The translations under genes and the position numbers were made by a program. Below are positions 46,438-63,945 of a DNA stretch of 64,000 nucleotides, in pieces. Below the pieces are notes generated by a model that saw nothing but the letters and a program-made list of their open reading frames with translations, made no database searches and was not told the DNA's origin. Position 1 is the stretch's first letter; every line of letters starts with the position of its first letter. Origin of the DNA: Streptomyces sp. NBC_00287 (GTDB taxonomy: Bacteria > Actinomycetota > Actinomycetes > Streptomycetales > Streptomycetaceae); contig NZ_CP108053.1 of the NCBI RefSeq assembly GCF_036173105.1, positions 496,001 through 560,000 on the forward strand, given 5' to 3'.

Positions 46438-47964
46438 ATGGTCAAGGCGCACGTCTCCACACCCGTGTTGGTCGCCGGGAGATACCGGCTCGTCGAGGTG
46501 GTCAGTCGGGAGACCAACCGCGTCTGCTGGTACGGCGAGGACATCGGGGTGGAGCGGCCCGTTCTGATCACACAGATCGGGCTGCCGGACGATCCGGGTG
46601 GGGAGGAGGCGCGCCGGATCACCGCGCGCGTCGTTCGGACCTCCGAGCGGATGGCGTTGATGGTTGCCGACCGGGTCGCCGAAGTCGTCGATGTCGTCGA
46701 GGAGTCGGGCACGCTCTGGGTGGTCACTCGGTGGATCGACGGTGTGCCGCTGAGCGAACTCCTTGCCCAGCGGGGCACGTTGAACTATGTCCGGGCCGCG
46801 CGCATCGGTCTGGAACTGCTCGACGTACTGGAGGCCGCGCACGGGCAGGGCATCACGCACGGCGAACTCAGCCCTGCCCAGGTGTTCGTGCGCGACGAGG
46901 GTTCCGTCGTCGTCACCGGTTTCGGGCTGGCCGGCGCCACCCTCGCGCCCCGGCTCTCCGCCCCCGCCTACGCCTCCCCCGAGCAGGCACGCGACGAGCG
47001 CTTCGGGCCGGCCACCGATATGTGGAGCCTGGGCGCGCTGCTCTACACCATGCTGGAGGGACGCCCGCCCTTCCGGGACCGGGGGCGGCCGGAGGCCACG
47101 CTGAAGGGCGTGGACCGGCTGCCGCTGCGCACCCCGGTGCGTGCCGGGCCGCTCACCCAGGCCGTGCAGGGCCTGCTGCGCAAGGACCCGGTGGAGCGGC
47201 TGCCCCGCCCGGTGGTCCGCGAGGCCCTCGTCCGCACCCTCGACGAGGAGACCGCGGTGGCGATGCCGAGCCCCCGGCTGCGCGGCCGTTACGCGCACTG
47301 CCCGGGCTGGAGCAACCGCACCATGATCGCCGGGACCGCGCTGGCGGTCGTCACCGTCGCGGTCGCCGTTCTCGCGGTGACCGACCGGCTGCCGGGCGGC
47401 TCGGACTCCCCCGCCGCGGGGGCGAAGCCCGGCGCGACGACCCCGTCCGCGACCGCTTCCGCCTCCCCCAGTCCGTCGGCCACGCCATCGCCCACCCCCA
47501 CGGAATCGCCCTTTGGCCGCTACGACTCCCCCCAGGGCTTCTCCGTCACGCTCCCGGAGGGCTGGCAGCCGCTGAGCACCAACCGGGTCTCGGATCTGGC
47601 GTACCGGGTCGTCCTCGGCGCGGAGGGCGACCCACGGACGCTCACCGTCACCTACAGCGAACGGGTCGGCCCCGATCCCGTCGCCGTCTGGCGGGATGTG
47701 GAGCCCGGTCTGAAGCAGGCCGGCGGCTACCGGCGGATCGGCGAGATCCGGGCGACGACGTACCGGGGCCGGGAGGCCGCGGAGATGGAGTGGCTGGCGA
47801 ACGCCGACGGCACCCGGGTCCGTACCTTCGGCCGGGGCTACCTCATCGGCGGCGGGCGCGGCTATTCGCTGCGCTGGACGGCGGCCGCGGCCGACTGGGA
47901 CGACGCGGACAACCGCGAGGCCCTGGCCACCGCCCTGCGCACGTTCCAGGAGCCGTCAGACTGA
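46438..47964 (+). CDS. Membrane-anchored protein kinase homologue lacking catalytic residues
   Basis: About 508 residues. The N-terminal 270 residues have a Ser/Thr kinase-like fold, but the key residues are changed: the HRD loop is ITHGELSPAQV (His141 to Glu143, no Asp), and the DFG motif is TGFGLA (Gly161). The usual ATP lysine is also not seen in VLITQIGLP. A Ser/Pro/Thr-rich linker follows a membrane segment (about 296-316, IAGTALAVVTVAVAVLAV), and the C-terminal extracellular domain has FGRYDSPQGFSVTLPEGWQP. So it is probably a pseudokinase receptor. ATG 46438 is favoured over 46432 by AGGG six bases upstream. It overlaps the convergent hydrolase gene by 9 bp. Confidence 0.82.
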   Translation: MVKAHVSTPVLVAGRYRLVEVVSRETNRVCWYGEDIGVERPVLITQIGLPDDPGGEEARRITARVVRTSERMALMVADRVAEVVDVVEESGTLWVVTRWIDGVPLSELLAQRGTLNYVRAARIGLELLDVLEAAHGQGITHGELSPAQVFVRDEGSVVVTGFGLAGATLAPRLSAPAYASPEQARDERFGPATDMWSLGALLYTMLEGRPPFRDRGRPEATLKGVDRLPLRTPVRAGPLTQAVQGLLRKDPVERLPRPVVREALVRTLDEETAVAMPSPRLRGRYAHCPGWSNRTMIAGTALAVVTVAVAVLAVTDRLPGGSDSPAAGAKPGATTPSATASASPSPSATPSPTPTESPFGRYDSPQGFSVTLPEGWQPLSTNRVSDLAYRVVLGAEGDPRTLTVTYSERVGPDPVAVWRDVEPGLKQAGGYRRIGEIRATTYRGREAAEMEWLANADGTRVRTFGRGYLIGGGRGYSLRWTAAAADWDDADNREALATALRTFQEPSD

Positions 47965-49356
47965 CCGGCGGGGCGCGCCCATCGCGCTGAGCGGCCGGGG
48001 GTGCAGCGGCTGGGTGCGCCAGCGTGCCGTGCACGTGCGGTCCGGCAGCGAGCAGGTCACGGCGAGACGGTGGGGCGTCTCCAGGAAGAGCACGTCCACC
48101 TCCAGTGTGTCGGCGTCGGTCCAGCCGCCGCTCACCGCGGTGGGGACCGGCGCCTCGGCGACGCTCCAGCCGCTGTCCGCGAGCCGCAGTTCCAGCCGGT
48201 GACCGTCCTCGACGAGGGTCAGCCGGTGGCCGTCCGGATCCGCGATGACCTCCGCGGAGATCCCGTCGGAGCCGAAGGAGACGGCGGACCACTCCTCCGG
48301 CGCGGCCTTTCCGGCGGCCGGTGACAGCGCGAGCCCGGCCAGCCGCTCGGCCAGGGCCGCGTCCGCCTCCTCCCGGCCGGGCAGCGGCGCGGGACCGAAG
48401 GCGGGCAGCAGATGCGTCCAGACCAGATCCAGCATCCGCTGCATCTCCACGGTGGCCGCGGTCGTGGCGATCACCACGTCGTGCTCGGGCAGGACCATAC
48501 AGAACTGGCCATAGGCGCCGTCACCGCGGTAGCCGTGCCGAGACATCCAGAACTGCAGGCCGTACCCCTGCCGCCAGTCCGCGCCGCCCATCGGTCCCTG
48601 ATCGTTCGCCGTGTGCAGGCGGGTGGCCTCGGCCACCCAGGACTCGGGCAGGACCTGCCGTCCGTCCCACATGCCGCGGCTCAGGTAGAGCTGTCCCAGC
48701 CGGGCGATCGCGTCGGTGGTGGCGTGCAGCCCGCTGAAGCCGAGCTCGCGCCCGGCCCGGTCCCGCAGCCACGCCACCTCGCCGATGCCTATCGGGTCGA
48801 AGAGCCGGGGGCGCAGATAGTCGGTGAGCGACTGGCCGGAGACGCGCTGGACGATCCTGGCGAGGGTGTAGGTGGTGGGCTGGTTGTAGGCGAACACGGT
48901 CCCCGGATCATGCTCCGGCGGGAGCCGGAGGAACCCTCGCACCAGCTCGTCGGGGTCCAGCGCACGGGCCCGCTCGACGGTCTCGGCCTCGTGTCCGCTG
49001 GCCATCGACGCCACGTGGCGCACCAGCATCGCGCGGCTGCGCGGGTCGGTGACGTCGGCGTCGAGCTCGGGGAAGTACGAGATCACCGGGTCGTCGAGCC
49101 GCAGCAGCCCCTCGGCGACGGCGAACCCGGCGGCGGTGGAGGTGAAGCTCTTGCTGAGCGAGTACAGCAACTGCGGGCGTTCGGCGGTGTACGGCGCCCA
49201 CCAGCCGGAGGCGACGAGCCGGCCGTGCCGCATGATCATGAGGCTGTGCGGCTCGATGTCGGGGTCGGTTTCGAGGGCGTCGAGGAAGGCGTGGATGCCG
49301 GATGCTTCGACGCCCTGGGACGCGGGCGTGCTGGCGGGCAGTGCGCGTGTCGTCAT
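47956..49356 (-). CDS. Serine hydrolase (beta-lactamase family)
   Basis: A 466-residue cytoplasmic-looking beta-lactamase-fold hydrolase without a signal peptide. The catalytic motif is SLSK (Ser66, Lys69), then AYNQPTTYTLARIVQ with the Tyr-Asn pair, and a GYGLQFWM region in the last third. Many members are esterases or carboxypeptidases of unknown substrate. A C-terminal extension of about 100 residues (from about 360) has a beta-rich composition. The ATG at 49356 starts MTTRALPASTPASQG. It is divergent from an F420-dependent oxidoreductase with 58 bp between starts. Confidence 0.87.
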   Translation of the reverse strand: MTTRALPASTPASQGVEASGIHAFLDALETDPDIEPHSLMIMRHGRLVASGWWAPYTAERPQLLYSLSKSFTSTAAGFAVAEGLLRLDDPVISYFPELDADVTDPRSRAMLVRHVASMASGHEAETVERARALDPDELVRGFLRLPPEHDPGTVFAYNQPTTYTLARIVQRVSGQSLTDYLRPRLFDPIGIGEVAWLRDRAGRELGFSGLHATTDAIARLGQLYLSRGMWDGRQVLPESWVAEATRLHTANDQGPMGGADWRQGYGLQFWMSRHGYRGDGAYGQFCMVLPEHDVVIATTAATVEMQRMLDLVWTHLLPAFGPAPLPGREEADAALAERLAGLALSPAAGKAAPEEWSAVSFGSDGISAEVIADPDGHRLTLVEDGHRLELRLADSGWSVAEAPVPTAVSGGWTDADTLEVDVLFLETPHRLAVTCSLPDRTCTARWRTQPLHPRPLSAMGAPRRSV

Positions 49357-49414
49357 GACGGCATCCTTACCCACCAGGCCGTTTTCCCGTGCCCGGGTCG
49401 GGGACTCGGGCCGC

Positions 49415-50386
49415 ATGGTGCAAATCGGATACACGATGATGACCGAACAAGCCGGCCCCCGTGACCTCGTCGACCACGTGGTGCGCGCCGAAGAGGCGGG
49501 CTTCGATTTCTCCGTGACCTCGGACCACTACTTTCCCTGGCTGCGCTCGCAGGGTCACTCGCCGTACGCGTGGACCGTGCTCGGCGCGGCGGCCCAGGCG
49601 ACTCGGCGGATGCCGCTGATGACCTATGTGACGTGTCCGACCTTCCGCTACCACCCGGCGGTGGTCGCGCAGAAGGCGGCCACGATGCAACTGCTGTCCG
49701 ACGGCCGCTTCCGCCTCGGGCTCGGCTCCGGGGAGAACCTCAACGAGCATGTGGTGGGCGGTGGTTGGCCGTCCGTCGATGTGCGGCACGAGATGCTGGA
49801 GGAGGCGATCGGAATCATCCGGGCGCTCTTCGACGGCGGCCATGTCACCCATCACGGCGCCCACTACGACGTGGACTCGGCCCGCCTGTGGGACCTGCCC
49901 GAGCAGCCGCCGCCGATCGGCGTCGCCGTCTCCGGCGAACAGTCCTGCTCACTCGCGGGCCGGCTTGCCGACCTGGTGATCGCCACCGAGCCGAAGGCGG
50001 GTCTGCTGGAGGCCTTCGACCGGCACGGCGGCCAGGGCAAACCGCGTGTCGGCCAGCTGCCGGTGTGCCACGACCCCGACCGGGACACGGCGGTCAAGCG
50101 CGCCCATGCGCAGTTCCGCTGGTTCGGCGGTGGCTGGAAGGTCAACTCGGAGCTGCCGCACCCCGATTCCTTCGAGTCGGCCACCCAGTTCGTCACTCCG
50201 GACGACGTCTCCACCGCCATCCCGTGCGGCGACGACCCGGACGCCTTCGTCGAGGCCGTACGGCCGTACGCGGAGGCCGGGTTCGGCGAGATCGCCCTGG
50301 TGCAGATCGGCGGGGAGTCGCAGCCGGCCTATCTGGACTGGTCGGAGAAGACACTGCTGCCGGCGCTGCGGGACGCCTTCGGGTGA
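49415..50386 (+). CDS. LLM-class F420-dependent oxidoreductase
   Basis: A 323-residue luciferase-like monooxygenase-fold protein of the TIGR03557 F420 group. N-terminal VQIGYTMMTEQAGPRDLVDH with DHYFPWLRSQGHSPYAW, then TYVTCPTFRYHPAVVAQKAAT (key part YVTCPTFRYHPAVVAQ) and LGLGSGENLNEHVVG are strong signatures. Members reduce or oxidise organic substrates with the deazaflavin F420. The substrate is unknown. The ATG at 49415 has only a weak upstream site; it is divergent from the hydrolase gene at 49356, and a separate HTH gene follows 91 bp downstream. Confidence 0.9.
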   Translation: MVQIGYTMMTEQAGPRDLVDHVVRAEEAGFDFSVTSDHYFPWLRSQGHSPYAWTVLGAAAQATRRMPLMTYVTCPTFRYHPAVVAQKAATMQLLSDGRFRLGLGSGENLNEHVVGGGWPSVDVRHEMLEEAIGIIRALFDGGHVTHHGAHYDVDSARLWDLPEQPPPIGVAVSGEQSCSLAGRLADLVIATEPKAGLLEAFDRHGGQGKPRVGQLPVCHDPDRDTAVKRAHAQFRWFGGGWKVNSELPHPDSFESATQFVTPDDVSTAIPCGDDPDAFVEAVRPYAEAGFGEIALVQIGGESQPAYLDWSEKTLLPALRDAFG

Positions 50387-50477: not shown

Positions 50478-51509
50478 GTGACCCTAGCCTTCGCCCCGTC
50501 CGAGTCGTCCCCCGCGCCGCTGTCCGACCTCGTCGCGCGGGACGCGCGTGAGTTCGGGGCGTACGCGCGCACCGGCGGGTGGGCCTTCGGCCTGATGGTG
50601 GCGCGCAGTGTGCGCCCCGGCGGTCAAGGCGCGGACGAGACGCCGAAGGTGTCGGCGAAGGAGTTCGCCGAGCTGGCCGGCTGCTCGCCCGAGCGAGTCA
50701 TGCGCTACTACAAGGCCTGGGACCGGGCCGCCGACGACGGTCTCGTCCCGCACTTCGAGGCGCTCCAGCCGGGCGCGGCGGTGGAGCTGCCGGACGCCGA
50801 CGTGTGGCTGAGCTACTACGTCTCCCGCAACAGCGCCACCTCCGAGCGGGGCACGGCCATCGCCGAGGCCGCCGAGGCGGAGGGCATCCGGCCGACGAAG
50901 GCGCTGGAGGTCGCGGAGAACCCCACCGCGCTGCGTGCCGCGATCCTCGCCGACCCTTCTACCGCCCGCGCGGCCCGCAGCGCGCTGCTCGACCGCATCA
51001 AGGAAGACCCGGAACTCCAGGCCGAGTTGGCCCGGGACGTGGTGCGCACCGACGATCTGAAGAAGGCCGTCGCCAGCGAGAGCCGGGCCGCCGACCGGAT
51101 CGGCTACGTCCGCCAGATCGCGGAGTCCGGCCAGGTCAAGACCCCCGCCGGGCAGACCATCGACGCGCCCGCCGACCTCCGCCAGGAGGCCGAGCGGCAT
51201 CTGTCCCTGCTCGACGAGCTGGACGAGGACGAGGACACCGGCGGGTGGGCCACCGAGGCCTACGACACCATGAAGACCCTCGTCGCCGAGACGGTGGAGG
51301 CCGACCCCGAGCTCCGCGTCCAGGAGCGGCGGACGAAGTTCTACAGCAGCCTGCAGCGGGCGACGAAGGTGTTCGAGGAGCTCACCTTCGATGATGTGCA
51401 GGAGTTCGTCGAGGACGACATGGTGCAGCAGTTGGAGGAGCTCCAGCAGGCGATCGCCTCGTGCATCACGGCGCTGCGCGGCGCCAAGGGAACCGGGGCG
51501 GCCGAGTAG
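50478..51509 (+). CDS. HTH-containing hypothetical regulator
   Basis: A 343-residue acidic protein. The only recognisable motif is a helix-turn-helix-like stretch around residues 58-84 (VSAKEFAELAGCSPERVMRYYKAW, key part FAELAGCSPERVMRYYKAW). The rest is long helical sequence with coiled-coil-like ends (EELTFDDVQEFVEDDMVQQLEELQQAI, key part DDMVQQLEELQQAI). I do not recognise a characterised family; a DNA-binding role is an inference from the HTH alone. GTG 50478 follows CAGGAGA. The final 90 residues could mediate oligomerisation. It is convergent with the DUF6328 gene through a bidirectional hairpin. Confidence 0.7.
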   Translation: MTLAFAPSESSPAPLSDLVARDAREFGAYARTGGWAFGLMVARSVRPGGQGADETPKVSAKEFAELAGCSPERVMRYYKAWDRAADDGLVPHFEALQPGAAVELPDADVWLSYYVSRNSATSERGTAIAEAAEAEGIRPTKALEVAENPTALRAAILADPSTARAARSALLDRIKEDPELQAELARDVVRTDDLKKAVASESRAADRIGYVRQIAESGQVKTPAGQTIDAPADLRQEAERHLSLLDELDEDEDTGGWATEAYDTMKTLVAETVEADPELRVQERRTKFYSSLQRATKVFEELTFDDVQEFVEDDMVQQLEELQQAIASCITALRGAKGTGAAE

Positions 51510-51530
51510 CCGTACGCATGCCGCTGGGCG

Positions 51531-51560
51531 GCCCACTGCCGCCACGATGGGGCGGTGGGC
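51531..51560. terminator. Bidirectional hairpin between convergent genes
   Basis: GCCCACTGCC (51531-51540) pairs with GGCGGTGGGC (51551-51560), with one G-T wobble, leaving a 10-base loop. It lies between the convergent stops at 51509 and 51564 and can terminate both. Confidence 0.65.
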
Positions 51561-52109: not shown

Positions 52110-54425
52110 CTAGTTGCGCACGACACGCCATCGGTTGTCGGCCGTGCCGTCGTCCGAGTCCTGGACCGCGAAGGCGCCGACGGCGGTGGAGTTGCCCGCG
52201 ATGGCGAGCAGTTTCCCGCTGTGGACGTTGCGGATCTTGTAGGTGCCGTCGTTCTGGTCGAGCAGGGTCCACCGGTGGTCGGCGGTGCCGTTGTCCGCCC
52301 ATTGCAGGACGGTCGCGTCGTCGGCGGTGGACATGTCCTGGACGCCGAGGACCTTGCCGCTGTGGGCGTTGCGGAAGCGGAAGGCGCTGCCGTCGCTGAT
52401 CATTTCCCAGTTGTGGTCGGCGGTGCCGGAGTCGTTCCACTGGAGGGCGCGGCCGCCGTCGGCGGTGGACATGTCCTGGATGCCCAGCACCAGACCGCTG
52501 GCCGCGTTGACGAGGCGCACGGTGGGGGTGGTGCCGGTGCTCCAGTAGACGGTGTAGTTGTGACCGTGGGCGTCGTGGAACGGGCCCAGGTTCACGGTGG
52601 CGCCGGCCGCGGTGGCGGTGAAGGCGAGGGTGCTGGTGCTGGTCCGCCTGATCGAGGTCGTGTCCAGGGACGGCAGTGAACTGAGCGCGGTGTTGCCGTA
52701 GTTGCCGGACAGGACGACCGGGCCGTAGGTGATCGCGGCGACATTGGGGTTGTCGTTGGCCGGCCGCATGACGACCCGCATGGGGAGGCGGACGGTGACC
52801 GTGTCGCCGGACGTCCAGGCGCGGGTGAGGGCGGCGTAACTGCCGGGCGTGGTCGGGATGTTCTGGGCGGTGCCGTTGACGCTGACGGTGGCGCCGGTGG
52901 TCCAGCCCGGGATGCGGATGCGCATGGTCCAGGTGCCGGCGGCGTTGCCGGTGACGCGCAGGGTCGTGGTGTCGCTCGCCGGGTACGAGGTGGTCTGGGT
53001 GACGGTGATGCCGCGCTCGGACCAGGTGAGGACCGAGGGGACGAACAGGTTCACCGTCAGGGTGGTGCCGGCGCGGTAATACACGGAGTCCATCAGCCTG
53101 GTGTGCATCTCCAGGCCGGTGCCCTGGCAGCACCAGAAGGTGGTGTAGTCGGTGCTCCAGGTGCCGCCTCCCCACGCCGGTCCCACGCCGCGCCGGCCGC
53201 CGGGGTTGAGCGGGGTGAAGTAGGTGACGTGGCCGTGGGAGTCGGCCGGGTTCTGCTGGCCGATCATCTGGTTGAGCCACGCCTGCTCGTAGTAGTCGAA
53301 CAGCGCGGCCCGGCTCGGGTCGAGGGCGAACAACTCCCGAGTCAGGGTGAGCATGTTGAAGGTGTTGCAGCTCTCGCAGGTGTCCTGGCGCAGGTAGGCG
53401 GCGATGGCGTTGGGGGCGCGGAAGTGCTCGGCCTGGCTGTTGCCGCCGATGGCGTAGGTGTGGGTGCCGACGCAGATGTTCCAGGCGTTGGTGGCGATGT
53501 CGCGGTAGCGGGTGGTGCCGGTGGCCTTGTACTCGCGGGCGGCGCCTATCCACTTCGGCACCTGGGTGTTGGCGTGCAGGCCGTTGAGCTGGTCCTGGTT
53601 CGCGGCCAGGGGGTCGAAGACCGCGGCGTGGTCGAAGCGGCGGGCGACGGTGAGCCAGCGCGCGTCGCCGGTCTGCTGGTAGAGATCGGTCAGTACGGCG
53701 TTCATGCCGCCGAACTCGGTGCCCAGCATGGCCTGCATCTGCGCCGCGGTCAGCCGGCCGGTGCGTGCGTCGACCCACCCCGCCAGGGCCAGCAGTACGT
53801 CACGGGCCTGGGTGTTGCCGATGAAGCGCCATACGTCCAGCAGGCCGGTGAGCGTCTTGTGGATGGTGTAGTACGGCACATTGCCGTTGGTGAGGGTGCG
53901 CTGTTCCAGGGCGGTGAAGTCGGACTCGGGGTAGCCGGAGAGATATCCGGCGCCGAATCCGGCGGCGCTGTTGTTGGCCTGACACTTCGCCAGCTCCGCG
54001 ACCATGTACGTCGCCTTGTCCCGGCATACGGTGTCGCCGGTCACGGCGTACAGCTGGGCCCAGGCGGTGAGGAAGTGGCCCTGGACGTGGCTGCGGAAGG
54101 GGAAGTCCGGCGCGTCCCAGCCGCCGCCGGGGCTCGCGCCGGCCGTGGACAGGCGGTGGTTTGCGCGGAAGTTGTACACGAGCCGGTCGACGTCGACGAA
54201 CCGCAGGTAGCTCGCGGTGCGGTTCTGGTTGTCCAGCCAGCGGCTCGCGGTCAGTCGGACCTGGCCGAGTTCGAAGGGATGCGCCAGGGCCCCGATGTCG
54301 GACCGGACCGGCGGGACCACCGCCGCGTGGGCGGGCGCACTGCCGAGGAGAGAGCCGGTGGCGGAGGCGGCGACCGAGGCCCCGGCGGCTTGCAGGAGGC
54401 GGCGTCTGCTGAGCTCTGACGGCAT
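52110..54425 (-). CDS. Tat-exported GH127 beta-L-arabinofuranosidase-like enzyme with a ricin-like module
   Basis: A 771-residue secreted glycosidase. The signal is Tat-type (SRRRLLQAAGAS), with cleavage after AHA. The catalytic domain, about residues 45-590, has the GH127 zinc-thiolate set: Glu351 and Cys353 in CESCN and Cys432-Cys433 in WCCQG, matching Glu338/Cys340/Cys417/Cys418 of the Bifidobacterium enzyme HypBA1. From about 635 to the end come three ricin-type (CBM13) repeats, each with GIQDMSTADG-like or WADNGTADHRW motifs. It probably releases L-arabinose from plant polymers outside the cell. ATG 54425 follows GGAAAG. A clear promoter and operator lie about 260-330 bp upstream. Confidence 0.92.
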   Translation of the reverse strand: MPSELSRRRLLQAAGASVAASATGSLLGSAPAHAAVVPPVRSDIGALAHPFELGQVRLTASRWLDNQNRTASYLRFVDVDRLVYNFRANHRLSTAGASPGGGWDAPDFPFRSHVQGHFLTAWAQLYAVTGDTVCRDKATYMVAELAKCQANNSAAGFGAGYLSGYPESDFTALEQRTLTNGNVPYYTIHKTLTGLLDVWRFIGNTQARDVLLALAGWVDARTGRLTAAQMQAMLGTEFGGMNAVLTDLYQQTGDARWLTVARRFDHAAVFDPLAANQDQLNGLHANTQVPKWIGAAREYKATGTTRYRDIATNAWNICVGTHTYAIGGNSQAEHFRAPNAIAAYLRQDTCESCNTFNMLTLTRELFALDPSRAALFDYYEQAWLNQMIGQQNPADSHGHVTYFTPLNPGGRRGVGPAWGGGTWSTDYTTFWCCQGTGLEMHTRLMDSVYYRAGTTLTVNLFVPSVLTWSERGITVTQTTSYPASDTTTLRVTGNAAGTWTMRIRIPGWTTGATVSVNGTAQNIPTTPGSYAALTRAWTSGDTVTVRLPMRVVMRPANDNPNVAAITYGPVVLSGNYGNTALSSLPSLDTTSIRRTSTSTLAFTATAAGATVNLGPFHDAHGHNYTVYWSTGTTPTVRLVNAASGLVLGIQDMSTADGGRALQWNDSGTADHNWEMISDGSAFRFRNAHSGKVLGVQDMSTADDATVLQWADNGTADHRWTLLDQNDGTYKIRNVHSGKLLAIAGNSTAVGAFAVQDSDDGTADNRWRVVRN

Positions 54426-54927: not shown

Positions 54928-55884
54928 TCAGCTACCGAGGATGGTCTCGCGTGCCGCTCGTGCCCAGATGGCCTGCTGGCGCGTGGTGAAGCCCATCCGG
55001 TTCCAGTGGAAGAGAATGTGCCGTGCCAGGATGCCGCGCAGGCCGAGTTGAAGGTTGCCCACGCGTGCCGCGTCCGCGAGGGCTCGGCCGCCGCGCTCCA
55101 TGCCGGCAACCCAGATCCCCAGCAGCGCGAGTTGGCCACCGGTGAGTGCGGGGCCGGCATCGAGCGTCAGGAGGCGCCGTAGCGAGTCCACCATGCAGCT
55201 CACCTGGCCCGGGGACACATCTTCGGGGAGTGGTCGCCGGGCTTCGATCTGCCCCCAGACGTCTCCTTGTTCTCCCCATTCCAGTCCGGCGGCACGCAGG
55301 AACAGGGCGACGACGAGGAGGGAGGTCTCTTTGGCTCCGAGGAGGCCGCCGGTGCCTTCGGTGGCGTGCTGGTGGTAGTCGAGCACGCCGACGCTGTCGG
55401 CGTGGAACAGGGCGTGCCCGAGCATCAACCCTTCCGGGCCGCCGAACGCGATGGTTTCCGGCTCGTACAGGGAAGACCACCACCCCTTGGCCACGCCCCA
55501 GGACAGTGCGCTGTCGAGGACGTCGGTGACCTGCGCGACGGCGTCTTTGATCCGTGCCTCCGGGCTCGCCTGGACGCGCAGACGCCAGCAAGGGTACTTG
55601 CGCAAGAACCACCATGCTCCGACCGGCCCGGTGCGCAGGGCCGGCAGGATGTACGCACGAAAGGCGCGTTCCGCAGTGGGGTAGTCGGCGAACTCGATGT
55701 TCACCTGGTGCCAGCCTGCGGGTGAGGTGGTGAGTGCGGCTCGGCCGGCGGCGCGGTACCGCTCAACTGCGTCGGCCAATCGAGCAGGGGATGCGCGTAC
55801 CCTGCTGGCGGCCTCCTCGATTGGCGTTCCCGCCAGGACGGACAGGATGGCACCCTCCATCGCACTGGTGGCCGTGTGGTCCAC
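54928..55884 (-). CDS. Stand-alone SpaB_C/thiopeptide-type bacteriocin biosynthesis protein
   Basis: A 318-residue protein matching the C-terminal (elimination-type) domain of LanB dehydratases, as found alone in thiopeptide and FxLD clusters. Seen: AGWHQVNIEFADYPTAERAFRAYILPAL (key part WHQVNIEFADYPTAE) and WWFLRKYPCWRLRVQ at about residues 80-100. In the dehydration reaction this domain removes glutamate from glutamylated Ser/Thr. GTG 55884 follows GAGGGGG and lies 10 bp after the LanC stop, so it is in the same operon. Because the LanB of this cluster also has its own C-terminal domain, this is a second copy. Confidence 0.88.
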   Translation of the reverse strand: MDHTATSAMEGAILSVLAGTPIEEAASRVRASPARLADAVERYRAAGRAALTTSPAGWHQVNIEFADYPTAERAFRAYILPALRTGPVGAWWFLRKYPCWRLRVQASPEARIKDAVAQVTDVLDSALSWGVAKGWWSSLYEPETIAFGGPEGLMLGHALFHADSVGVLDYHQHATEGTGGLLGAKETSLLVVALFLRAAGLEWGEQGDVWGQIEARRPLPEDVSPGQVSCMVDSLRRLLTLDAGPALTGGQLALLGIWVAGMERGGRALADAARVGNLQLGLRGILARHILFHWNRMGFTTRQQAIWARAARETILGS

Positions 55885-55894
55885 GTCGTCCCCC

Positions 55895-57043
55895 TCAGCA
55901 CAGAAGCAGGCAGGCGTCCCAGTCGTTGGCGGGCGCGGACCCCGGTTCGGGACTCTGGAAGGCCAGGGCCGCTCCTGCCGCCCCTTCGAGGAAGCCGTCA
56001 TCTTCCGGAGGGGCGAGAGCGAGAAAACGCTCACGCAGTTCGGGGAGTCGGTCCGTGAACACCGTGGGGATCTCGGCGTCCTCAGCGACACGTTGCACGG
56101 TGCGCAGGAGGCCGCCGATTCCATGGCACAGGCCGCGGGTGGTGAGCTGGTCGAGCTGGTGCGGGTCGGACAGGCAGTACAGGAGCGCGCGTTCGGCCAT
56201 CCTCTTGCGGTCCTCGTCGCCGAGGGCGATCGCAGCGAGCTGCTGCGCACGAGCCACTCCGGGGACGCCGTAGCACCAGGACGGTGCGGTCGGCGCCGCG
56301 GACGTCGGGCCTGTAGTGGCGATCCAGCGCGGCCAGCGAGTTCCGTGGTGGTCACTGCGGCGTATGCGATCGAGCCAGCGACAGATACGGGCCATGGCGG
56401 CGTCGTGGCCGTTCACGGTGATGCCGTGGCGCTTGGCCAGGGCGAGAAGGGCGAGCGGGCCGGTGATGCCGTGGGCGAGACCGGCGTTGGCATGACCGCC
56501 CGGCGTTGCCGCCCGTTGGCCGGCCGGCGCGTGCCCGACCCACCAGCCGGGAAGCGGTTGCCCCTTGGGCCCAGCCGCGGGTTCGGTAAGCCGGACCAGG
56601 TACTCCAGGACGGCCTTCAGTTCGTCGCTCTCCGGTCGGCGCCGCAGCAGGAGGGCACCGAGTCCAGTCAGGCCCCGGAACAGGTCGTACTCGGCGAAGC
56701 TGGCGTAGCGGCCCTGGTCGATGCGTGCGTGAGCGGCAGCGAGGCGGCGGCGGATGTGTGTGGCGACGACGTCGTCCAGTGTGCGCAGGGCTCCGGCGTA
56801 GCGGTCGCTGTCGGCGGCGGCCAGGTGCAGGACATACGTCATCGCGGGCGCGCCGAGGAACAGGCTGGCATCGTCTCCGTCGATCAGGGGGCGGACGGCG
56901 GCGAGTTGCCGGTGGACGGACTGCCATGGGGCGAGGCCGCGCCGGGCTCGTTCGATGTGGAGCAGCGCGATGCCGAGGGGGCCATGCGCGAGAGACTGCC
57001 GGGTGGCCAGGCCAGCTTCGATGGCGGGTGGGGCGATGGTCAC
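55895..57043 (-). CDS. lanC: LanC-like lanthionine cyclase
   Basis: A 382-residue LanC cyclase, which adds Cys thiols to dehydrated Ser/Thr to make (methyl)lanthionines. Zinc ligands are visible: Cys257 in SWCYGVPG and Cys306-His307 in GLCHGIGG. The HxxNxGLAHG motif is seen as GGHANAGLAHGITG (His184, His191). GTG 57043 overlaps the LanB stop by 4 bp (GTGA), so translation is coupled. The length is close to the family mean of about 400. Confidence 0.93.
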   Translation of the reverse strand: MTIAPPAIEAGLATRQSLAHGPLGIALLHIERARRGLAPWQSVHRQLAAVRPLIDGDDASLFLGAPAMTYVLHLAAADSDRYAGALRTLDDVVATHIRRRLAAAHARIDQGRYASFAEYDLFRGLTGLGALLLRRRPESDELKAVLEYLVRLTEPAAGPKGQPLPGWWVGHAPAGQRAATPGGHANAGLAHGITGPLALLALAKRHGITVNGHDAAMARICRWLDRIRRSDHHGTRWPRWIATTGPTSAAPTAPSWCYGVPGVARAQQLAAIALGDEDRKRMAERALLYCLSDPHQLDQLTTRGLCHGIGGLLRTVQRVAEDAEIPTVFTDRLPELRERFLALAPPEDDGFLEGAAGAALAFQSPEPGSAPANDWDACLLLC

Positions 57044-60000
57044 CGCAGGGCTCCTTGGGTACGGGCGATCCAGGACAGTGCGGCGGCGCGGGCGAGGCGG
57101 CGGCAGGTGGCTTCGCCGTCCGGGTCGATGCCGGCGGTGCGGTTGTAGTGCATGTGCAGTAGGGATGGCAGTACGGCGGCTGGGTCGGCACTGTTGGCGG
57201 TGAGGGCCTGGTGGTAGGCGGTCAGGGCGCCTCGGCGCCGGGCCCACGTTGTGGCGACGTAGGCGCCGTCCGGCAGGGACCGCAGGCAGGCGTGGTCGTG
57301 GTCCGGGGTGATGAGTCGGATCGCTGTGGTGAGTACGTCACGGGGTGCGGGGTCGCCGTCGTTCTTCGGGATATTGGTCGTGAGCCATGCCCGGCTGTCT
57401 GCGCGTGAGCCGAGGCAGGCATCGGCGATGTCCACGAAGCTGGCGGCGGTGACGGCAGGCCGCAGGTGATCGGAGATGGGCAGGGCCATCTGCGCGAGGG
57501 CGGCGGCGGAGTCGGCGGCGAAGAACCGCTCGGCGGCCTCCAGGACGGTGCCGGTACCGTAGCGGCCGGTCTCCGGCTCGTCGGTGTCCCATTGCACGCG
57601 CTGGAGCAAGCCCTCGGCGCGCAGCTCGCTCGCCCACGCTGCGACGCGCTGTGCGGCGTCGCCGAAGGCGTGCGGGTCTGGCAGGCGGAGCCGCAGTCGC
57701 AGGTGGCTGTGGGGGTCGACGTAGCGGGTAAACCACCAGTCCGGCCCCTCGGCTCCCCACTCGCTCAGCAACCGCGGCAGGTGGGTTGTCAGCACCTCCG
57801 GCGCGCGGTCGGCGTTGCCGTACAGCTTCAGGTACGCCCACTCGCTTGCGCCCGGTATCCGGCCGGAGTTGCGCGCCACCACGGTCGTGGTCCGGAAGAT
57901 GGGCGCGGGGGCGGGTGGCTGGTCGGCGGCGAAGGGCACGGTGATCTCGTGCGCGCGTCCCAGCCAGCCGAACGCGCTCTCCGGGGACGCCTCGTGGAGC
58001 ACCACCGTTCCCTGTCGGTCCATCTCGGCCTGAAGGAGCCGGACGTGGGCGGGGATGTCGAGGTCCAGGCGCAGCCGCTGGTCGTCGCTGCCCACGTAGA
58101 CGGTGCGCGGCATGCCGTAGCGGATGCGCCATTCGGTGAAGCGGAAGGCCCAGTTGTCCCCGCCGAGGTCTCGGGCGCGGAGTCGCCAGCACGCGGCGGA
58201 CAGGATGGTCCGGCCGACGCGCACTTCGGGAAGGAACGGCAGTTGGACTGCCGCGCCCCAGGCGAAGGGCAGGAGGACCGCGGCGTGTGAGCGGGGCAGT
58301 TCGCACACGAAGCGGACCAGTGGGTGGGTGGCGTTGGTGAGTTCCACGGCGTTCATGACCGACGGTTCGATCGGCCGGCAGGTGGCAAGGTGCACGAGGT
58401 ACAGACGCTGGGAGTCGGCGACGACGCCGACGTCGTCCAGGTCGAGGGTGGCCTGCGGGTTGTGCTCGCTGATGGACAGCACGTTCGGCACGACAGCCGG
58501 GGCGCGTGCGACGTTGTACGTCGGCAGCCGCAGCGGCGGGCTGGAGACCTGGCCTCGGGCGGCGCCGACAGTGAGCGTCGGCAGGTCGGCATACGCGGCG
58601 GTCATCCGCTCCCGGTCGGGTCGCTCCAGCATGGTCAGGAAGCGGCCGGTAGTGGTACCGGCCGCGAGGGAGAGCCCGACCGTGGTCAGGGTGAACCGAC
58701 CCCGCTGCAGGTCCTTCAGGGAGGGCGACAGCACGGTGAAGCACAGTTCGACGTGCGCGGGAACCTGGTCGGGCTCGCCGAGGGACAGCGCCTGGATGTC
58801 CTCCTCGCTGAGGACGATCTCGCGCTGGTCGTTGAGGGCAGCGTGCTGGGCGAGGGCGAGGAGGTATTCGTCGCGCCGGCTCGTGGCCACCACTGGGCGT
58901 CTCAGGACCGTGCCGCGATAGCCCGCCGGAAGGCCGAGGCCGACATCTGGGTCGGTGAGGTCACGCAAGGGGACGATGGCGCCCATGCTGTAGCGCTCAA
59001 GGAACCGCGTCCGGTAATCCCGCCAGGCCCCAGAGCCATTCGGGTACGGCGTGATCCGGGCCATGACCTCCAGGGCGCGCTCCGCCTCACGGGTCACGAT
59101 CTTCGGGAGGACGATGTCGCAGTCGGGCTGTAGGTTGACGACCAGGGTGCGGTCCGTGATGCCGGTGAGGGCATTCATCCTCGCGCCTGCCTGTGCGCGG
59201 AGAGACTGCTGGTTGTCCAGTGGGCCGCTGTTGTGGGCGGTCAGCAGCGTGTGAACCTGCCGCAGCTTCCTGACCGCGTCGGAGGCGGCTGCGGCTGTTT
59301 CGAGCTGGTTGATCAGGTGACCGAGCGCGTCGTCGCATGTCATGGGGGCGTGCAGGCTGCTCAGAAGCACCCGGTGCGCGACAAGGTTGCGCAGCATGTC
59401 CTCGATCACCGCAAGCGGCGTGTTGGGGTAGTCGCTGCGCAGTTTGGTCGTGAGGTCGCCGACCGTGATGGGTGCACGGGCGAGAGCCAGTACCGCTTCG
59501 ACGGCTGGGGTGCGCCGTAGCCGCGTATCGGTGGGACCGTCAGCGCCGCCCGGCTGGTGCTGCACAGTGATGCTGCCCCCTCGCACGGTGCAGGTGGGGT
59601 CGGCGATGACATGCAGGTGCCGCAGCACGTCCAGATCGCGTTCCAGGACGGCGATGACCTCCTTCAGCCACATGGCGTCGGCGCGCGCGAAGGCGCGGTG
59701 ATCGGCGCCCCACTGGACTCGGGCTGTACCCCCGAAACGTACGGGTGCGGGCCCGGCGAACAGCCCGAATGGGGTGGCGCGGTGCTGCATCCGCAGCAGG
59801 TAGCGAGCCAGAGAGACAGCCGTGCGCCTGACGATCCGTGGTCGCCGGTGTTCTCCGCTCAGCACCTGCCCAACGGACTTGGCAAGGAGGGGGGTGGCGA
59901 ACTCGATCGCAGCGGCCACGGTGTCATCCGTCCAGACCTGAGCGATCCACTCCCGCAACGGGTGCACGTCGGCGGACGCGTCGCCGTACAGATTTGGCCA

Positions 60001-60069
60001 GGGAGGCAGCGTCGCCGCCAAGGGGAACACCGAAGCTCTGACCATGCCCGCATCAATGGCGCGATACAT
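57040..60069 (-). CDS. lanB: LanB lantibiotic dehydratase (full length)
   Basis: A 1009-residue class I dehydratase that glutamylates Ser/Thr using Glu-tRNA and eliminates to Dha/Dhb. The N-terminal glutamylation domain has RRTAVSLARYLLRMQHRATPFGLFAG (key part RMQHRATPFGLFAGP); the C-terminal elimination domain starts near residue 730 with EWAYLKLYGNADRAPEVL and WWFTRYVDPHSHLRLRLRL. The ATG at 60069 is set by a perfect AAGGAGG site (60078-60084) 8 bases upstream; an ATG at 60093 is discarded. It follows the precursor gene after an 80-bp gap containing a stable hairpin, and its stop overlaps lanC. Confidence 0.95.
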   Translation of the reverse strand: MYRAIDAGMVRASVFPLAATLPPWPNLYGDASADVHPLREWIAQVWTDDTVAAAIEFATPLLAKSVGQVLSGEHRRPRIVRRTAVSLARYLLRMQHRATPFGLFAGPAPVRFGGTARVQWGADHRAFARADAMWLKEVIAVLERDLDVLRHLHVIADPTCTVRGGSITVQHQPGGADGPTDTRLRRTPAVEAVLALARAPITVGDLTTKLRSDYPNTPLAVIEDMLRNLVAHRVLLSSLHAPMTCDDALGHLINQLETAAAASDAVRKLRQVHTLLTAHNSGPLDNQQSLRAQAGARMNALTGITDRTLVVNLQPDCDIVLPKIVTREAERALEVMARITPYPNGSGAWRDYRTRFLERYSMGAIVPLRDLTDPDVGLGLPAGYRGTVLRRPVVATSRRDEYLLALAQHAALNDQREIVLSEEDIQALSLGEPDQVPAHVELCFTVLSPSLKDLQRGRFTLTTVGLSLAAGTTTGRFLTMLERPDRERMTAAYADLPTLTVGAARGQVSSPPLRLPTYNVARAPAVVPNVLSISEHNPQATLDLDDVGVVADSQRLYLVHLATCRPIEPSVMNAVELTNATHPLVRFVCELPRSHAAVLLPFAWGAAVQLPFLPEVRVGRTILSAACWRLRARDLGGDNWAFRFTEWRIRYGMPRTVYVGSDDQRLRLDLDIPAHVRLLQAEMDRQGTVVLHEASPESAFGWLGRAHEITVPFAADQPPAPAPIFRTTTVVARNSGRIPGASEWAYLKLYGNADRAPEVLTTHLPRLLSEWGAEGPDWWFTRYVDPHSHLRLRLRLPDPHAFGDAAQRVAAWASELRAEGLLQRVQWDTDEPETGRYGTGTVLEAAERFFAADSAAALAQMALPISDHLRPAVTAASFVDIADACLGSRADSRAWLTTNIPKNDGDPAPRDVLTTAIRLITPDHDHACLRSLPDGAYVATTWARRRGALTAYHQALTANSADPAAVLPSLLHMHYNRTAGIDPDGEATCRRLARAAALSWIARTQGALR

Positions 60070-60077
60070 GGGACACG

Positions 60078-60084
60078 CCTCCTT
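60078..60084 (-). promoter_or_regulatory. Consensus ribosome binding site of lanB
   Basis: AAGGAGG on the minus strand, 8 bases before the ATG at 60069. It decides the lanB start and is much stronger than most sites in this window. Confidence 0.85.
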
Positions 60085-60104
60085 CATCGTCACGAGGGCG
60101 CGGA

Positions 60105-60136
60105 GGCCGGGCCCGGCAAGGAGCCTCGGCCCGGCC
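60105..60136 (-). terminator. Hairpin between lanA and lanB (probable partial terminator)
   Basis: GGCCGGGCC (60105-60113) and GGCCCGGCC (60128-60136) form a 9-bp perfect stem with a further inner GGC/GCC pairing. Such hairpins between precursor and enzyme genes attenuate read-through so that precursor exceeds enzyme in RiPP operons. Confidence 0.7.
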
Positions 60137-60149
60137 CCCGCGCGACGGA

Positions 60150-60344
60150 TCAGCCGCCGATGCAGGTGCTGTTGGAGCAGGCGGACTGGCAGGTGGAGCC
60201 GCAGTTGTCGCTGGTGTCGTTCAGCAGCGAGCCGAGGACCGGGGCGGAGGCGACGGTCTCGATACGGAGGTCGAAGTCCGAGTCTGCGTCGGCCCCGAAG
60301 TCCGTGGCGGCCGTCAGGGTGGTGCCTGTGTTCTGCGGTGCCAT
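60150..60344 (-). CDS. lanA: Lanthipeptide precursor (FxLD family)
   Basis: A 64-residue precursor. The leader (about residues 1-40) is acidic and Ala/Thr-rich with a FNLD-like recognition box FDLRI at 24-28. The core, ending at the C-terminus, is SLLNDTSDNCGSTCQSACSN plus STCIGG: four Cys (48, 52, 56, 61), each with Ser or Thr nearby upstream (44/45, 50/51, 54, 57/59/60). There is no tail. The start ATG 60344 follows GAGGAGAA. It lies between the methyltransferase gene and lanB on the same strand. The predicted product is a compact peptide with up to four thioether rings. The exact leader cleavage site is not visible. Confidence 0.93.
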   Translation of the reverse strand: MAPQNTGTTLTAATDFGADADSDFDLRIETVASAPVLGSLLNDTSDNCGSTCQSACSNSTCIGG

Positions 60345-60409
60345 CGCGTTCTCCTCGTCTGCAGAGGTGGGTGGAGGTGCCTTACGTCCTGATCGCAACG
60401 CGGGCGGCG

Positions 60410-61657
60410 TCACGGCCAGGAGATGGTGATCCGCGTGTGCTGCCGGTCGATGACCCGGCCTGCGGGAAGTTGGTCGTCCGGGGTTCCGGCCGGTTGGACC
60501 TCGATGTGCGCACGGTGACTGCGATGGTCGCGGTCCCAGGTCTGGATCTCCTCGACCAGGCGCTCGGCGACGGCCTTGCTCTGCGGCCCGTGGCCGACCG
60601 CGCCCAGCTCGAACCGGTCGGGGTCGTCGGTGGCGCGGACGATGCGGTAGGCGAGGCTGTCGCCGTCCACGAGGGTCGGCACGCCAAGTGGCGAGGCGGA
60701 AGCGACCAGGCCGCGTTGCCGGGCGGCGGGCTTCGCCGCCATCAGGGGGAGGTTGTCCAGGGCGGTCGTCAGCCACAGGTCCAGGTGTTCGTTGGACTCA
60801 TCGCCTGCGAGGGTCACGCCGGACCACGCCTCGGCGCGCGCGGTGCGCAGCGCGGCACGCAGGGCCTCGATGTCGGGCTCGGGGTGTCCGTCCAGGCGCA
60901 GAGCGACTTCCTCGCCCTCCGTGTCGTGGATGACGGCCAGGCGCACGCGGTTCTCGCCGGCGCCCTGCATCGGCACGAAGCCGCACAGCTCGAACCCGTC
61001 GCTGACCAGACGCTCGCCGTCGCGGACGAAGGCGATGGTGCGGGTCATGCCGCGAATCCGTAGCGGGGCGACGAGCCGGCCGCCTTCAGTGAGTTGGTGG
61101 ATCCAGGCCGGCGGGATGTCGGCTGCCTGCACGGTGACGAGGATGCGGTCGTACGGTGCATGGCCGGGCACGCCGTGCTCGCCGTCGGCAGTGATCACGG
61201 TGACGTTCCGGTGACCGGTCGCCTTGAGGAAGTCCTTCGCACGCTGTGTGACATCGCGATCGATGTCCATCGTGATGACGCGGCCTTGCTCTCCCACCAG
61301 CTCGGCGAGGTAGGCCGCGTTCACTCCGCCGGAGCCGATCTCCAAGACGTTCATCCCCGGCTGGATATCGGCCTGCTCGATCTGCATGGCCTGGATGCGC
61401 GGAGCGGACACCGAGCTGATGTCCACGCCCGTGGCGTCCGTCTTCGTCACGGCGGCGTACTCGGCGTCGTAGGTTCTGGCCAACTCCACCTCGGGAGTGG
61501 CCAGGTGTCGGGGGACCGAACGGAACGCGGCCACAACGCGAGGGCTTTGTGCGGCGCCCAGTTCGATCAGCCGCTGGACCATCGCGTCGCGCAGTTGCTG
61601 CTCGGGCACAGGGGTGCTGGCGTTGTTCCTCGTCGTCATGTTGGGATCGGCATCCAC
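60410..61657 (-). CDS. FxLD-system methyltransferase (PIMT-like, LanSA type)
   Basis: A 415-residue protein. Residues about 20-230 resemble protein-L-isoaspartate O-methyltransferase: VSAPRIQAMQIEQADIQPGM corresponds to the substrate loop (about 83-102), VLEIGSGGVNAAYLAEL is the SAM motif (GSG 108-110), and Asp131 in VITMDIDRDV binds the ribose. A C-terminal domain of about 180 residues is family-specific. By analogy with OlvSA it would methylate an Asp of the lanthipeptide and lead to isoaspartate, but this is inferred. The GTG at 61657 is chosen because GAAGGAGAG lies 5 bases upstream; ATG 61639 has no such site. It is 65 bp upstream of the precursor gene. Confidence 0.9.
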   Translation of the reverse strand: MDADPNMTTRNNASTPVPEQQLRDAMVQRLIELGAAQSPRVVAAFRSVPRHLATPEVELARTYDAEYAAVTKTDATGVDISSVSAPRIQAMQIEQADIQPGMNVLEIGSGGVNAAYLAELVGEQGRVITMDIDRDVTQRAKDFLKATGHRNVTVITADGEHGVPGHAPYDRILVTVQAADIPPAWIHQLTEGGRLVAPLRIRGMTRTIAFVRDGERLVSDGFELCGFVPMQGAGENRVRLAVIHDTEGEEVALRLDGHPEPDIEALRAALRTARAEAWSGVTLAGDESNEHLDLWLTTALDNLPLMAAKPAARQRGLVASASPLGVPTLVDGDSLAYRIVRATDDPDRFELGAVGHGPQSKAVAERLVEEIQTWDRDHRSHRAHIEVQPAGTPDDQLPAGRVIDRQHTRITISWP

Positions 61658-61862: not shown

Positions 61863-62162
61863 CTACGCGATGTGGACGGGCGGTCTGTCGAACGGCGCGC
61901 TCGTGGGCCACTTACCGACGGAGTAAGGCTGCGCAAGCGCGGAGTTGGGGGCGCGGTGCCGGCGGATGGGTTGCTCGCTCATCGTCCAGTGGAGCTGTTC
62001 GAGCCTGAAGACGCACCACTGGCAGGCGAAGAGGGGAAACGCCCTGTCTGCCACAGTGATGTCGCCGATCGCTGCTACCGGAACGCCGGTCTGTTCGCAC
62101 CTGAAGCAGCTCCCGTTCTGCCAGTCGAAACGGCCCCACAACTCACCCGGCCTCAAACCCAT
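61863..62162 (-). CDS. Small Cys4 (CxxC/CxxC) protein
   Basis: A 99-residue protein with two Cys pairs, CFRC and CQWC, about 28 residues apart, in a sequence MGLRPGELWGRFDWQNGS then CFRCEQTG and FACQWCVFRLEQLHW. This is the pattern of a zinc ribbon or rubredoxin-like knuckle. I do not recognise a family. The ATG at 62162 follows GGGAGG, and its coding region overlaps the preceding gene by 10 bp, so translation is likely coupled. It is 205 bp upstream of the lanthipeptide methyltransferase gene on the same strand. Confidence 0.65.
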   Translation of the reverse strand: MGLRPGELWGRFDWQNGSCFRCEQTGVPVAAIGDITVADRAFPLFACQWCVFRLEQLHWTMSEQPIRRHRAPNSALAQPYSVGKWPTSAPFDRPPVHIA

Positions 62163-62554
62163 GTCCGACCGCCTCCCGGGAGATGCGGCCTCGGGTGGCC
62201 GCCGACGAGGGGCAGAAAGATGACGGGACGGGCGTGCCACACGAAGGAGTGCGGTTCCGCCGTGAGCGGCAGCGTGAAGTCCGCTCCCTGCTTCAAGGCG
62301 GAGGCGGCGTTACGCCATCCCTGGTCGCGTAGGTCCACAAGCGGGTCGATGAACGCCGGTTCGACGGCCGAGGCGATGATGCGGATCTGGATTCGGGCCC
62401 ATCGGACGGCTGAGGCGGGGGTCTGCTGTGCGGCCGAGCTGATGCGCCGACCGTCAGCGTGACGCCACTCGCACCAGAAGCCTGGTTCGGGCCCGCAGGC
62501 GGCACGCGTACGCGCCGACGAGCGGTGAAGCAGCATGGGATGGTCAGGGCGCAT
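62153..62554 (-). CDS. Hypothetical protein next to the lanthipeptide cluster
   Basis: A 133-residue protein with no motif that I recognise. The ATG at 62554 follows GGAAG, and the C-terminal half (VWHARPVIFLPLVGGHPRPHL) looks like a folded domain. It starts inside the end of the upstream reading frame (11-bp overlap) and overlaps the next gene by 10 bp, an arrangement typical of a translationally coupled small operon. Codon third positions are G/C rich. Function unknown; linkage to the lanthipeptide cluster suggests an accessory role, but that is inference. Confidence 0.6.
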   Translation of the reverse strand: MRPDHPMLLHRSSARTRAACGPEPGFWCEWRHADGRRISSAAQQTPASAVRWARIQIRIIASAVEPAFIDPLVDLRDQGWRNAASALKQGADFTLPLTAEPHSFVWHARPVIFLPLVGGHPRPHLPGGGRTWV

Positions 62555-63041: not shown

Positions 63042-63461
63042 ATGAAGCTACGGTTCCTTGGTAAGAACTCCACAGTCGGCGACTGCCCGACCCTGTACGC
63101 CACAGACCGGGACACCTACCTCGTCCAGGGCTGGAAGATCTTCGCGAACGACCTGTTGATGCAACTCGACATCTCCGAGGGGGAGACGGCGGTGGAGGTG
63201 CCTACGGAGCTGTTCGAGCACCTCACGAAAGACGGCCTGCCGGCCGGGGAGATCAAGCGCCTCGACGACCCGATCATGATCCTGACACCCGGCGGTACGT
63301 TCGTCGTCCAGGGCCGCGAGGTGACTGACCCCGAGGCCGTGACCCAGATGGAGATTCCGGACTACGAGACCGTGGTCGAGGTTCCCAAGGCCGCGATCAC
63401 CGCCCTACTGGAGGAACCGCGTGGAGCTGATCTCCAGCGCCGAGCGCAACCAGCTCTTTGA
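63042..63461 (+). CDS. Hypothetical protein upstream of the DUF6879 gene
   Basis: A 139-residue acidic protein with two half-repeats containing the parallel segments YLVQGWKI and FVVQGREVTDPE, each followed by an MxI-type strand and VEVP. I do not recognise a named family. ATG 63042 follows ACAGGAGAA. It overlaps the next gene by 41 bp in a different frame. This arrangement, unknown protein, DUF6879, then HTH gene, is a common Streptomyces accessory unit. Confidence 0.72.
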   Translation: MKLRFLGKNSTVGDCPTLYATDRDTYLVQGWKIFANDLLMQLDISEGETAVEVPTELFEHLTKDGLPAGEIKRLDDPIMILTPGGTFVVQGREVTDPEAVTQMEIPDYETVVEVPKAAITALLEEPRGADLQRRAQPAL

Positions 63462-63945
63462 GAGCTTCGCGCAGGACGCATTCCATCTGGAGCTGCGGGA
63501 CGACTACTCCGTCCCCGCCGAGGACAGTCCGTTCCCGAGCTGGCTGCGCGGCGAGGCCGTCGACTACTCCTACATGGAACCGTGGACGCAGCTCATGCGG
63601 CGCGTCACCGGGGATGGGAAAACCGTCCGACGCGTCCGCGTGGTCACGGAGCCGCACACTCCCTACATCCAATGGGAGCACGCCACCACCACCCTCAACG
63701 AGAAGGCAGGCGAACAGATTCGCTGGCTGCCCCGACACCGCTTGCCCGAGAGCGTCAAGTTCCCCGTGGGAGGCAACGACTGGTGGTTGTACGACGACCG
63801 CCTTCTCGCCGTGGGCCACTTCGACTCCGACGGCAGAGTCCTCGGATCGGAGATCGTCGAAGACCCGGACATCGTGGCCGAGTGTGTGCGCCTGCGGGAC
63901 CTCCTGTGGGCCGCCGCCATCCCCCACCCCGAGTACAAGCCCTGA
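63421..63945 (+). CDS. DUF6879 family protein
   Basis: A 174-residue protein. The family is recognised by FESFAQDAFHLELRDDYSVP, WLRGEAVDYSYMEPWTQLMRRV (key part EPWTQLMRRVTGDGKTVRR) and DWWLYDDRLLAVGHFDSDGR near the C-terminus. DUF6879 genes usually sit next to Scr1-type XRE regulator genes; the function is unknown. GTG 63421 follows GAGGA at a short spacing. It is followed 7 bp later by the start of an HTH gene. Confidence 0.82.
   Translation: MELISSAERNQLFESFAQDAFHLELRDDYSVPAEDSPFPSWLRGEAVDYSYMEPWTQLMRRVTGDGKTVRRVRVVTEPHTPYIQWEHATTTLNEKAGEQIRWLPRHRLPESVKFPVGGNDWWLYDDRLLAVGHFDSDGRVLGSEIVEDPDIVAECVRLRDLLWAAAIPHPEYKP

Follow-up and report, generated by a model that had tools for sequence, protein, structure and literature searches.

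A predicted class I lanthipeptide set

The window analysed here is a stretch of 64,000 nucleotides from Streptomyces sp. NBC_00287 (NZ_CP108053.1, positions 496,001 to 560,000). Five adjacent minus-strand genes at its positions 54928-61657 encode, in this order, a methyltransferase, a precursor peptide, the dehydratase LanB, the cyclase LanC and a stand-alone SpaB_C protein. Judged from sequence comparison, the expected product of the set is a class I lanthipeptide bearing up to four thioether rings, a likely isoaspartate at Asp46 and, likely, at least one threonine eliminated with net syn geometry; we give this reading a probability of about 0.72. A preliminary description of this DNA left the stand-alone SpaB_C protein without a role. 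Its active-site letters are those of syn-glutamyl lyases, so that a predicted syn-type lyase is present where the known site of such an enzyme, Thr57 of CoiA1 from the coi system, is absent.

The order of the genes on one strand, which the preliminary description had read from motifs, is confirmed by profile matches at the same coordinates. Its assignment of the cluster to the FxLD type and to class I is borne out by TIGR04363, TIGR04364, PF04738, PF14028 and PF05147, LanB and LanC standing next to a precursor whose core contains Ser, Thr and Cys. The translation also gives the expected 64 residues (Met included) with all four Cys within the last 25. The precursor belongs to the FxLD family lanthipeptides (TIGR04363, NCBIfam cut-off 30 bits). 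Nothing else in the 9.64-Mb genome scores above this cut-off (E 1.3e-12 for the precursor, E 0.56 for the next match), and none of 14 control genomes has a match that does, so the match is not due to chance. The methyltransferase (416 residues) matches TIGR04364 (methyltransferase, FxLD system; cut-off 320 bits) over model positions 2-394 of 394 and is a PIMT homologue with a C-terminal extension, of the olv/LanSA type. LanB is the only complete PF04738 gene of the genome (654.6 bits; PF14028 161.3 bits), and its lyase domain is canonical, with His, Arg826 and Tyr kept. Both PF14028 matches of the genome lie in this cluster, and the domains of LanB and of the stand-alone protein both fall in TIGR03891 (136.1 bits for the latter). 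The LAHG, WCYG and CHG motifs of LanC align with those of NisC and MadC.

For comparison, 189 loci were assembled: 140 regions around listed TIGR04363 matches, 48 named loci and the window. The named loci, retrieved by a search with the lyase of the window, therefore lean towards its own subfamily; the listed cluster G050:C1:5402983 and unlisted matches were left out. A precursor was found by a profile built for this comparison in 169 of the 189 loci, and several of the other 20 are cut by contig ends. With duplicates and frames of over 60 residues set aside, 182 precursor frames gave 156 unique cores, of which 8 depart from the ring pattern (two frames of L109 and one each of L078, L082, L130, L139, L171 and L173) and 7 come from loci of unclear architecture. 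Locus L093 was dropped from the stand-alone type, as its lyase and methyltransferase frames resemble a broken fused gene. The counts refer to unique sequences and not to independent events, which kinship makes far fewer than the rows.

In the proposed route LanB would bind the leader and glutamylate core Ser and Thr from Glu-tRNA, and its own lyase domain would eliminate some of the glutamyl residues in anti geometry to dehydroalanine (Dha) or (Z)-dehydrobutyrine (Dhb). The stand-alone lyase, which has Lys96 and lacks a catalytic His, would convert at least one glutamyl-Thr to (E)-Dhb. LanC would add cysteines to close the rings Thr44-Cys48 and Thr51-Cys56, expected by homology to CoiA1 and OlvA, and further rings may arise from Cys52 and perhaps Cys61. 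The methyltransferase would then methylate Asp46 within the first ring, the ester passing to an aspartimide and, on hydrolysis, mostly to isoaspartate. The syn target in the window peptide could not be the equivalent of CoiA1 Thr57, as Asn58 occupies that position.

The isoaspartate step has precedents. The PIMT homologue of the FxLD family is reported to methylate a specific Asp after cyclisation, the resulting aspartimide opening mostly to isoaspartate, and Asn has been noted as the residue following the modified Asp (PMC13001092). The motif TxD[G/N]C is described as the site of action of the PIMT-type enzyme (PMC13001092, PMC10787088). Asp46 lies in TSDNC, which fits this motif, and is Asp in all 34 unique cores of the window's subfamily (NSTC). 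The full-length family match of the methyltransferase and the constancy of Asp46 across the subfamily make its conversion to isoaspartate likely; the earlier analogy with OlvSA stands on the same match and motif.

The stand-alone SpaB_C protein

The stand-alone SpaB_C protein is predicted to be a syn-glutamyl lyase. Lys96 replaces the Tyr of canonical lyase domains, the pair Arg101 and Arg103 is kept, the catalytic His is absent and Arg826 is replaced (Ala146 and Leu291 stand at the lost positions); all the letters typical of SptBb and CoiSA(ED) are found in it. The signature Lys is present in 88/90 stand-alone and 58/58 fused lyases and in none of 156 LanB domains. In CoiSA(ED), the K46A variant led to a build-up of glutamylated intermediates. 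The predicted fold is closest to NisB, MadB and MibB, the helical N-terminus gives a weak match to PF13518, and a comparison of the protein with PDB sequences returned no match.

Many listed homologues are named "FxLD family lanthipeptide" or "thiopeptide-type bacteriocin biosynthesis protein". Taken literally, the second name would make the SpaB_C protein a thiopeptide-like [4+2] pyridine synthase and not a lyase. The predicted fold is common also to pyridine synthases, a likeness which does not decide the matter. On the active-site letters and the lack of a nearby YcaO gene we reject the thiopeptide reading of the name, and we consider such an activity highly improbable here: no YcaO-type cyclodehydratase lies near the precursor, the nearest of five YcaO matches in the genome being about 480 kb away.

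The lyase tree comprises 112 rows after thinning at 75 percent identity, including 8 LanB domains. Three loci (L171, L173 and L174) with a fused lyase/methyltransferase and precursors with only two Cys (STDDGC...GDC) are placed in it among the stand-alone forms; their lyases have the Lys and also an Arg at the Arg826 position. This placement hints at a second fusion event.

The lyase closest by identity (87 percent) is that of Streptomyces europaeiscabiei (L188), which has Gln in the Lys column; the LanC and lyase frames of this locus look disrupted, and no precursor was found in it by profile. With such a relative at hand, the cluster of the present strain might be imagined as silent or decaying and making no product, the more so as native products of coi and olv were still unreported in 2022 (PMC9486935, discussion). 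However, all five window frames are intact, show overlaps and have plausible starts, and every tested active-site letter is kept. We regard a dead cluster as very improbable.

The precursor core and the predicted site of syn elimination

The window core reads T44-S-D46-N-C48-G-S-T51-C52-Q-S-A-C56-S-N58-S-T60-C61. The rings of CoiA1 are Thr43-Cys47, Thr50-Cys55 and Cys51-Thr57, the last being assigned to CoiSA and of D-allo-L type (PMC9486935). Compared with CoiA1, the window core keeps the first two Thr-Cys pairs, their spacing and the Asp of the first ring, but Asn58 occupies the Thr57 position and a fourth Cys stands near its end. No characterised product with this core was found: three core strings had no match in the literature searched and the precursor had none among PDB sequences. 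Among the 34 unique cores of the NSTC subfamily T44, D46, C48, T51, C52, S54, A55, C56, N58, S59 and C61 are invariant, position 60 is Thr in 33 of them, and position 57 is Ser in 30.

The absence of Thr at the Thr57 position extends to the whole stand-alone type. None of its 67 unique cores has Thr there (Ser in 32, Asn in 33), the sole row of this type with Thr being the dropped L093, whereas 58 of the 64 unique fused-type cores do. The position is Ser in 8 of 9 unique olv-like cores, which agrees with the reported C-terminal lanthionine of the olv product. A missing Thr57 equivalent is not mentioned in the available text of PMC9486935. By kinship, this difference amounts to little more than a single event.

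The lyase of the stand-alone type either moved to another threonine or serves a serine. In 14 of the 67 cores the first two ring positions hold the only threonines, so in these peptides the syn target would be a ring Thr or a serine. The Thr of ring A is present in 68/68 stand-alone-type cores and the Thr of ring B in 66/67, against 45/64 in the fused type (Fisher p 3.4e-6, kinship ignored); when branch lengths are taken into account, one change in the stand-alone type stands against six in the fused type (p 0.047). Because of this constancy of the ring-B Thr, used only as a lean, we favour Thr51 as the predicted syn target in the window peptide, followed by Thr60; Thr44 and a serine are also possible.

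It may be tentatively suggested that the syn site moved in the stand-alone lineage, which would place a D-allo-L-methyllanthionine in the Thr51-Cys56 ring, beside the isoaspartate ring, with the third ring made from a serine or rebuilt around the added C-terminal Cys. If this is true, nearly the same scaffold and enzyme pair would lead to a different stereochemical pattern. The counts at the Thr57 position are striking, but the LanB tree (130 rows) shows no more than three changes of lyase architecture and only two independent pairs; with so few changes the link between the architecture and the residue at the Thr57 position does not permit a significance test.

Alternatively, the stand-alone lyase may serve a serine, for example Ser59, giving Dha without any stereochemical mark and finishing dehydrations that the LanB domain performs poorly. 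The frequency of Ser at the Thr57 position and the invariance of Ser59 in the subfamily agree with this, as do two published observations: SapT contains one lanthionine though SptBb is its sole lyase, so that a syn-type lyase can handle serine (PMC9011353), and CoiB alone stalled after one dehydration (PMC9486935). A lyase devoted to serine nevertheless seems unlikely to us. The CoiA1-T57S variant was poorly processed, which its authors read as possible Thr specificity (PMC9486935), and the first two ring threonines are nearly unvaried in stand-alone-type cores.

None of the 148 unique pattern-fitting cores has an extra Cys at both its N- and C-terminal ends. On the LanB tree the C-terminal Cys corresponds to one change (with a branch support of only 31) and the N-terminal one to two. 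A swap of the fourth Cys between the core ends as a repeated pattern was considered and dropped, the changes on this tree being too few.

A small peptide served by two lyases of opposite geometry would be a natural system in which to ask how the stereochemistry of each ring is assigned. As the stand-alone lineage lacks CoiA1 Thr57, the sole site so far assigned to a coi syn-lyase, a member of it would show whether these lyases are position-specific, threonine-specific or neither.

Locus, distribution and known systems

The features of the cluster are collected in the table.

Table. Features of the lanthipeptide cluster (window positions).
Feature	Position	Strand	Basis
LanSA-type O-methyltransferase (PIMT homologue, FxLD system)	60410..61657	-	TIGR04364 507 bits, PF01135 138.6 bits
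FxLD lanthipeptide precursor, 64 residues, core about L40-G64	60150..60344	-	TIGR04363 51.1 bits
Asp46 codon, predicted methyltransferase target (TSDNC, within predicted Thr44-Cys48 ring)	60207..60209	-	Asp in 34/34 unique subfamily cores
Thr51 codon, favoured candidate syn-elimination site, predicted Cys56 partner	60192..60194	-	Thr in 66/67 stand-alone-type vs 45/64 fused-type cores
lanA-lanB stem-loop, likely attenuator or RNA stabiliser	60075..60149	-	-53.7 kcal/mol, z -4.23
LanB dehydratase: glutamylation domain and own anti-type lyase domain	57040..60069	-	PF04738, PF14028; aligned with NisB, MibB, MadB
LanC cyclase	55895..57043	-	PF05147 126.9 bits; LAHG, WCYG, CHG motifs
Stand-alone SpaB_C, predicted syn-glutamyl lyase, 318 residues	54928..55884	-	PF14028 69.5 bits, syn signature, predicted fold
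Lys96 codon of lyase, syn-lyase signature residue	55597..55599	-	Invariant in 45 aligned homologues

The start choices were judged by overlaps and upstream sequence. The precursor gene lanA begins with ATG 60344, just downstream of the purine-rich GACGAGGAG. ATG 60069 is the likely start of LanB (GTG 60093 is possible), and GTG 61657 and GTG 55884 are the likely starts of the methyltransferase and the lyase. The likely LanC start, GTG 57043, overlaps the LanB stop, and the lyase gene lies 10 bases from LanC. The stem-loop between lanA and lanB is GC-rich, none of 200 shuffles is as low in energy, and a terminator scan found no T tract; such a structure would suit a higher output of precursor than of enzymes.

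Neither the five cluster genes nor seven neighbouring frames searched against Pfam include a recognisable transporter, immunity gene or dedicated leader peptidase, so the leader would have to be removed, and the product exported, by proteins encoded elsewhere. Frames 61863-62237, 62153-62554, 63042-63461 and 50484-51545 have no Pfam match; 63421-63945 is DUF6879, and 47956-49434 encodes a serine hydrolase of family PF00144. The gene just downstream (52110-54425) encodes a GH127 beta-L-arabinofuranosidase with ricin-type lectin repeats and is likely unrelated, serving sugar metabolism apart from the cluster. Of the upstream frames, 61863 and 62153 are found again in five to six of the other loci, mostly nearest relatives, 63042 in nine and 63421 in twelve.

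Elsewhere in the genome, at 9.4 Mb (G000:C1:9417540-9417881), a second LanB N-terminal domain fragment with an internal stop is perhaps the remnant of another cluster. Equal-score YcaO matches lie on opposite strands at near mirror positions (G000:C1:14759-15697 and 9627167-9628105), and weak ones are likewise mirrored at 29.9 kb and 9.613 Mb. They probably mark the terminal inverted repeats of a linear chromosome, each at least about 30 kb long.

A TIGR04363 match is present in 109 of the 297 genomes sampled from Streptomycetaceae, the family of the window, and Walker et al. describe Asp-bearing, methyltransferase-associated precursors as the most abundant class I type in Actinobacteria. The gene order of the window (methyltransferase-precursor-LanB-LanC-lyase) is found in 77 of the 169 loci with a precursor. 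The coi-type order, precursor-LanB-LanC-fused lyase/methyltransferase, occurs in 66, precursor-LanB-LanC-methyltransferase in 10, and 16 are partial or mixed. The nearest LanB in the tree, 87 percent identical, belongs to Streptomyces tuirus. S. tuirus PHM034, S. albus NRRL F-4971 and Streptomyces sp. F63 share the precursor sequence of the window without a difference from the FxLD region onwards.

Among known systems, olv of Streptomyces olivaceus NRRL B-3009 (OlvA, OlvSA; PMC13001092, PMC9486935; the facts on OlvSA come via the review PMC13001092) resembles the window in a PIMT-like methyltransferase acting on the Asp of the first methyllanthionine ring and in four Cys of the precursor region. 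Unlike the window, it is without an extra lyase, and in loci of its gene order (ten) the additional Cys mostly precedes the first ring (8/9 unique cores), whereas the window core carries it C-terminally.

SptBb of the SapT cluster, for which an (E)-Dhb product was demonstrated by nuclear magnetic resonance, is a separate protein like the window lyase, also with Lys for Tyr, a hydrophobic residue for Arg826 and no catalytic His (PMC9011353, PMC9890492). However, SptBb works with a split LanB that has no other lyase, while the LanB of the window is complete with its own lyase domain.

The coi system of Streptomyces coelicolor A3(2) (CoiA1, CoiB, CoiC, CoiSA; PMC9486935) shares with the window a LanB with an anti-type lyase domain, LanC, a PIMT-like methyltransferase and an extra lyase of syn signature, as well as the same first two Thr-Cys pairs and spacing in the core. 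The extra lyase of coi forms one fused protein with the methyltransferase, and its site is Thr57, as concluded from the product; in the window it is a separate gene, and the lyase and methyltransferase genes lie at opposite ends of the operon, the methyltransferase upstream. The cores differ in Asn58 at the Thr57 position and the fourth Cys at the end. No characterised member of the group with a stand-alone syn-lyase was found in the literature searched. The window falls in a published predicted group, namely a stand-alone syn-lyase beside a full dehydratase (PMC9486935, section 9 and Figure 7, group 3), and its five-gene set adds one more case to a kind that is published, widespread and common in Streptomyces.

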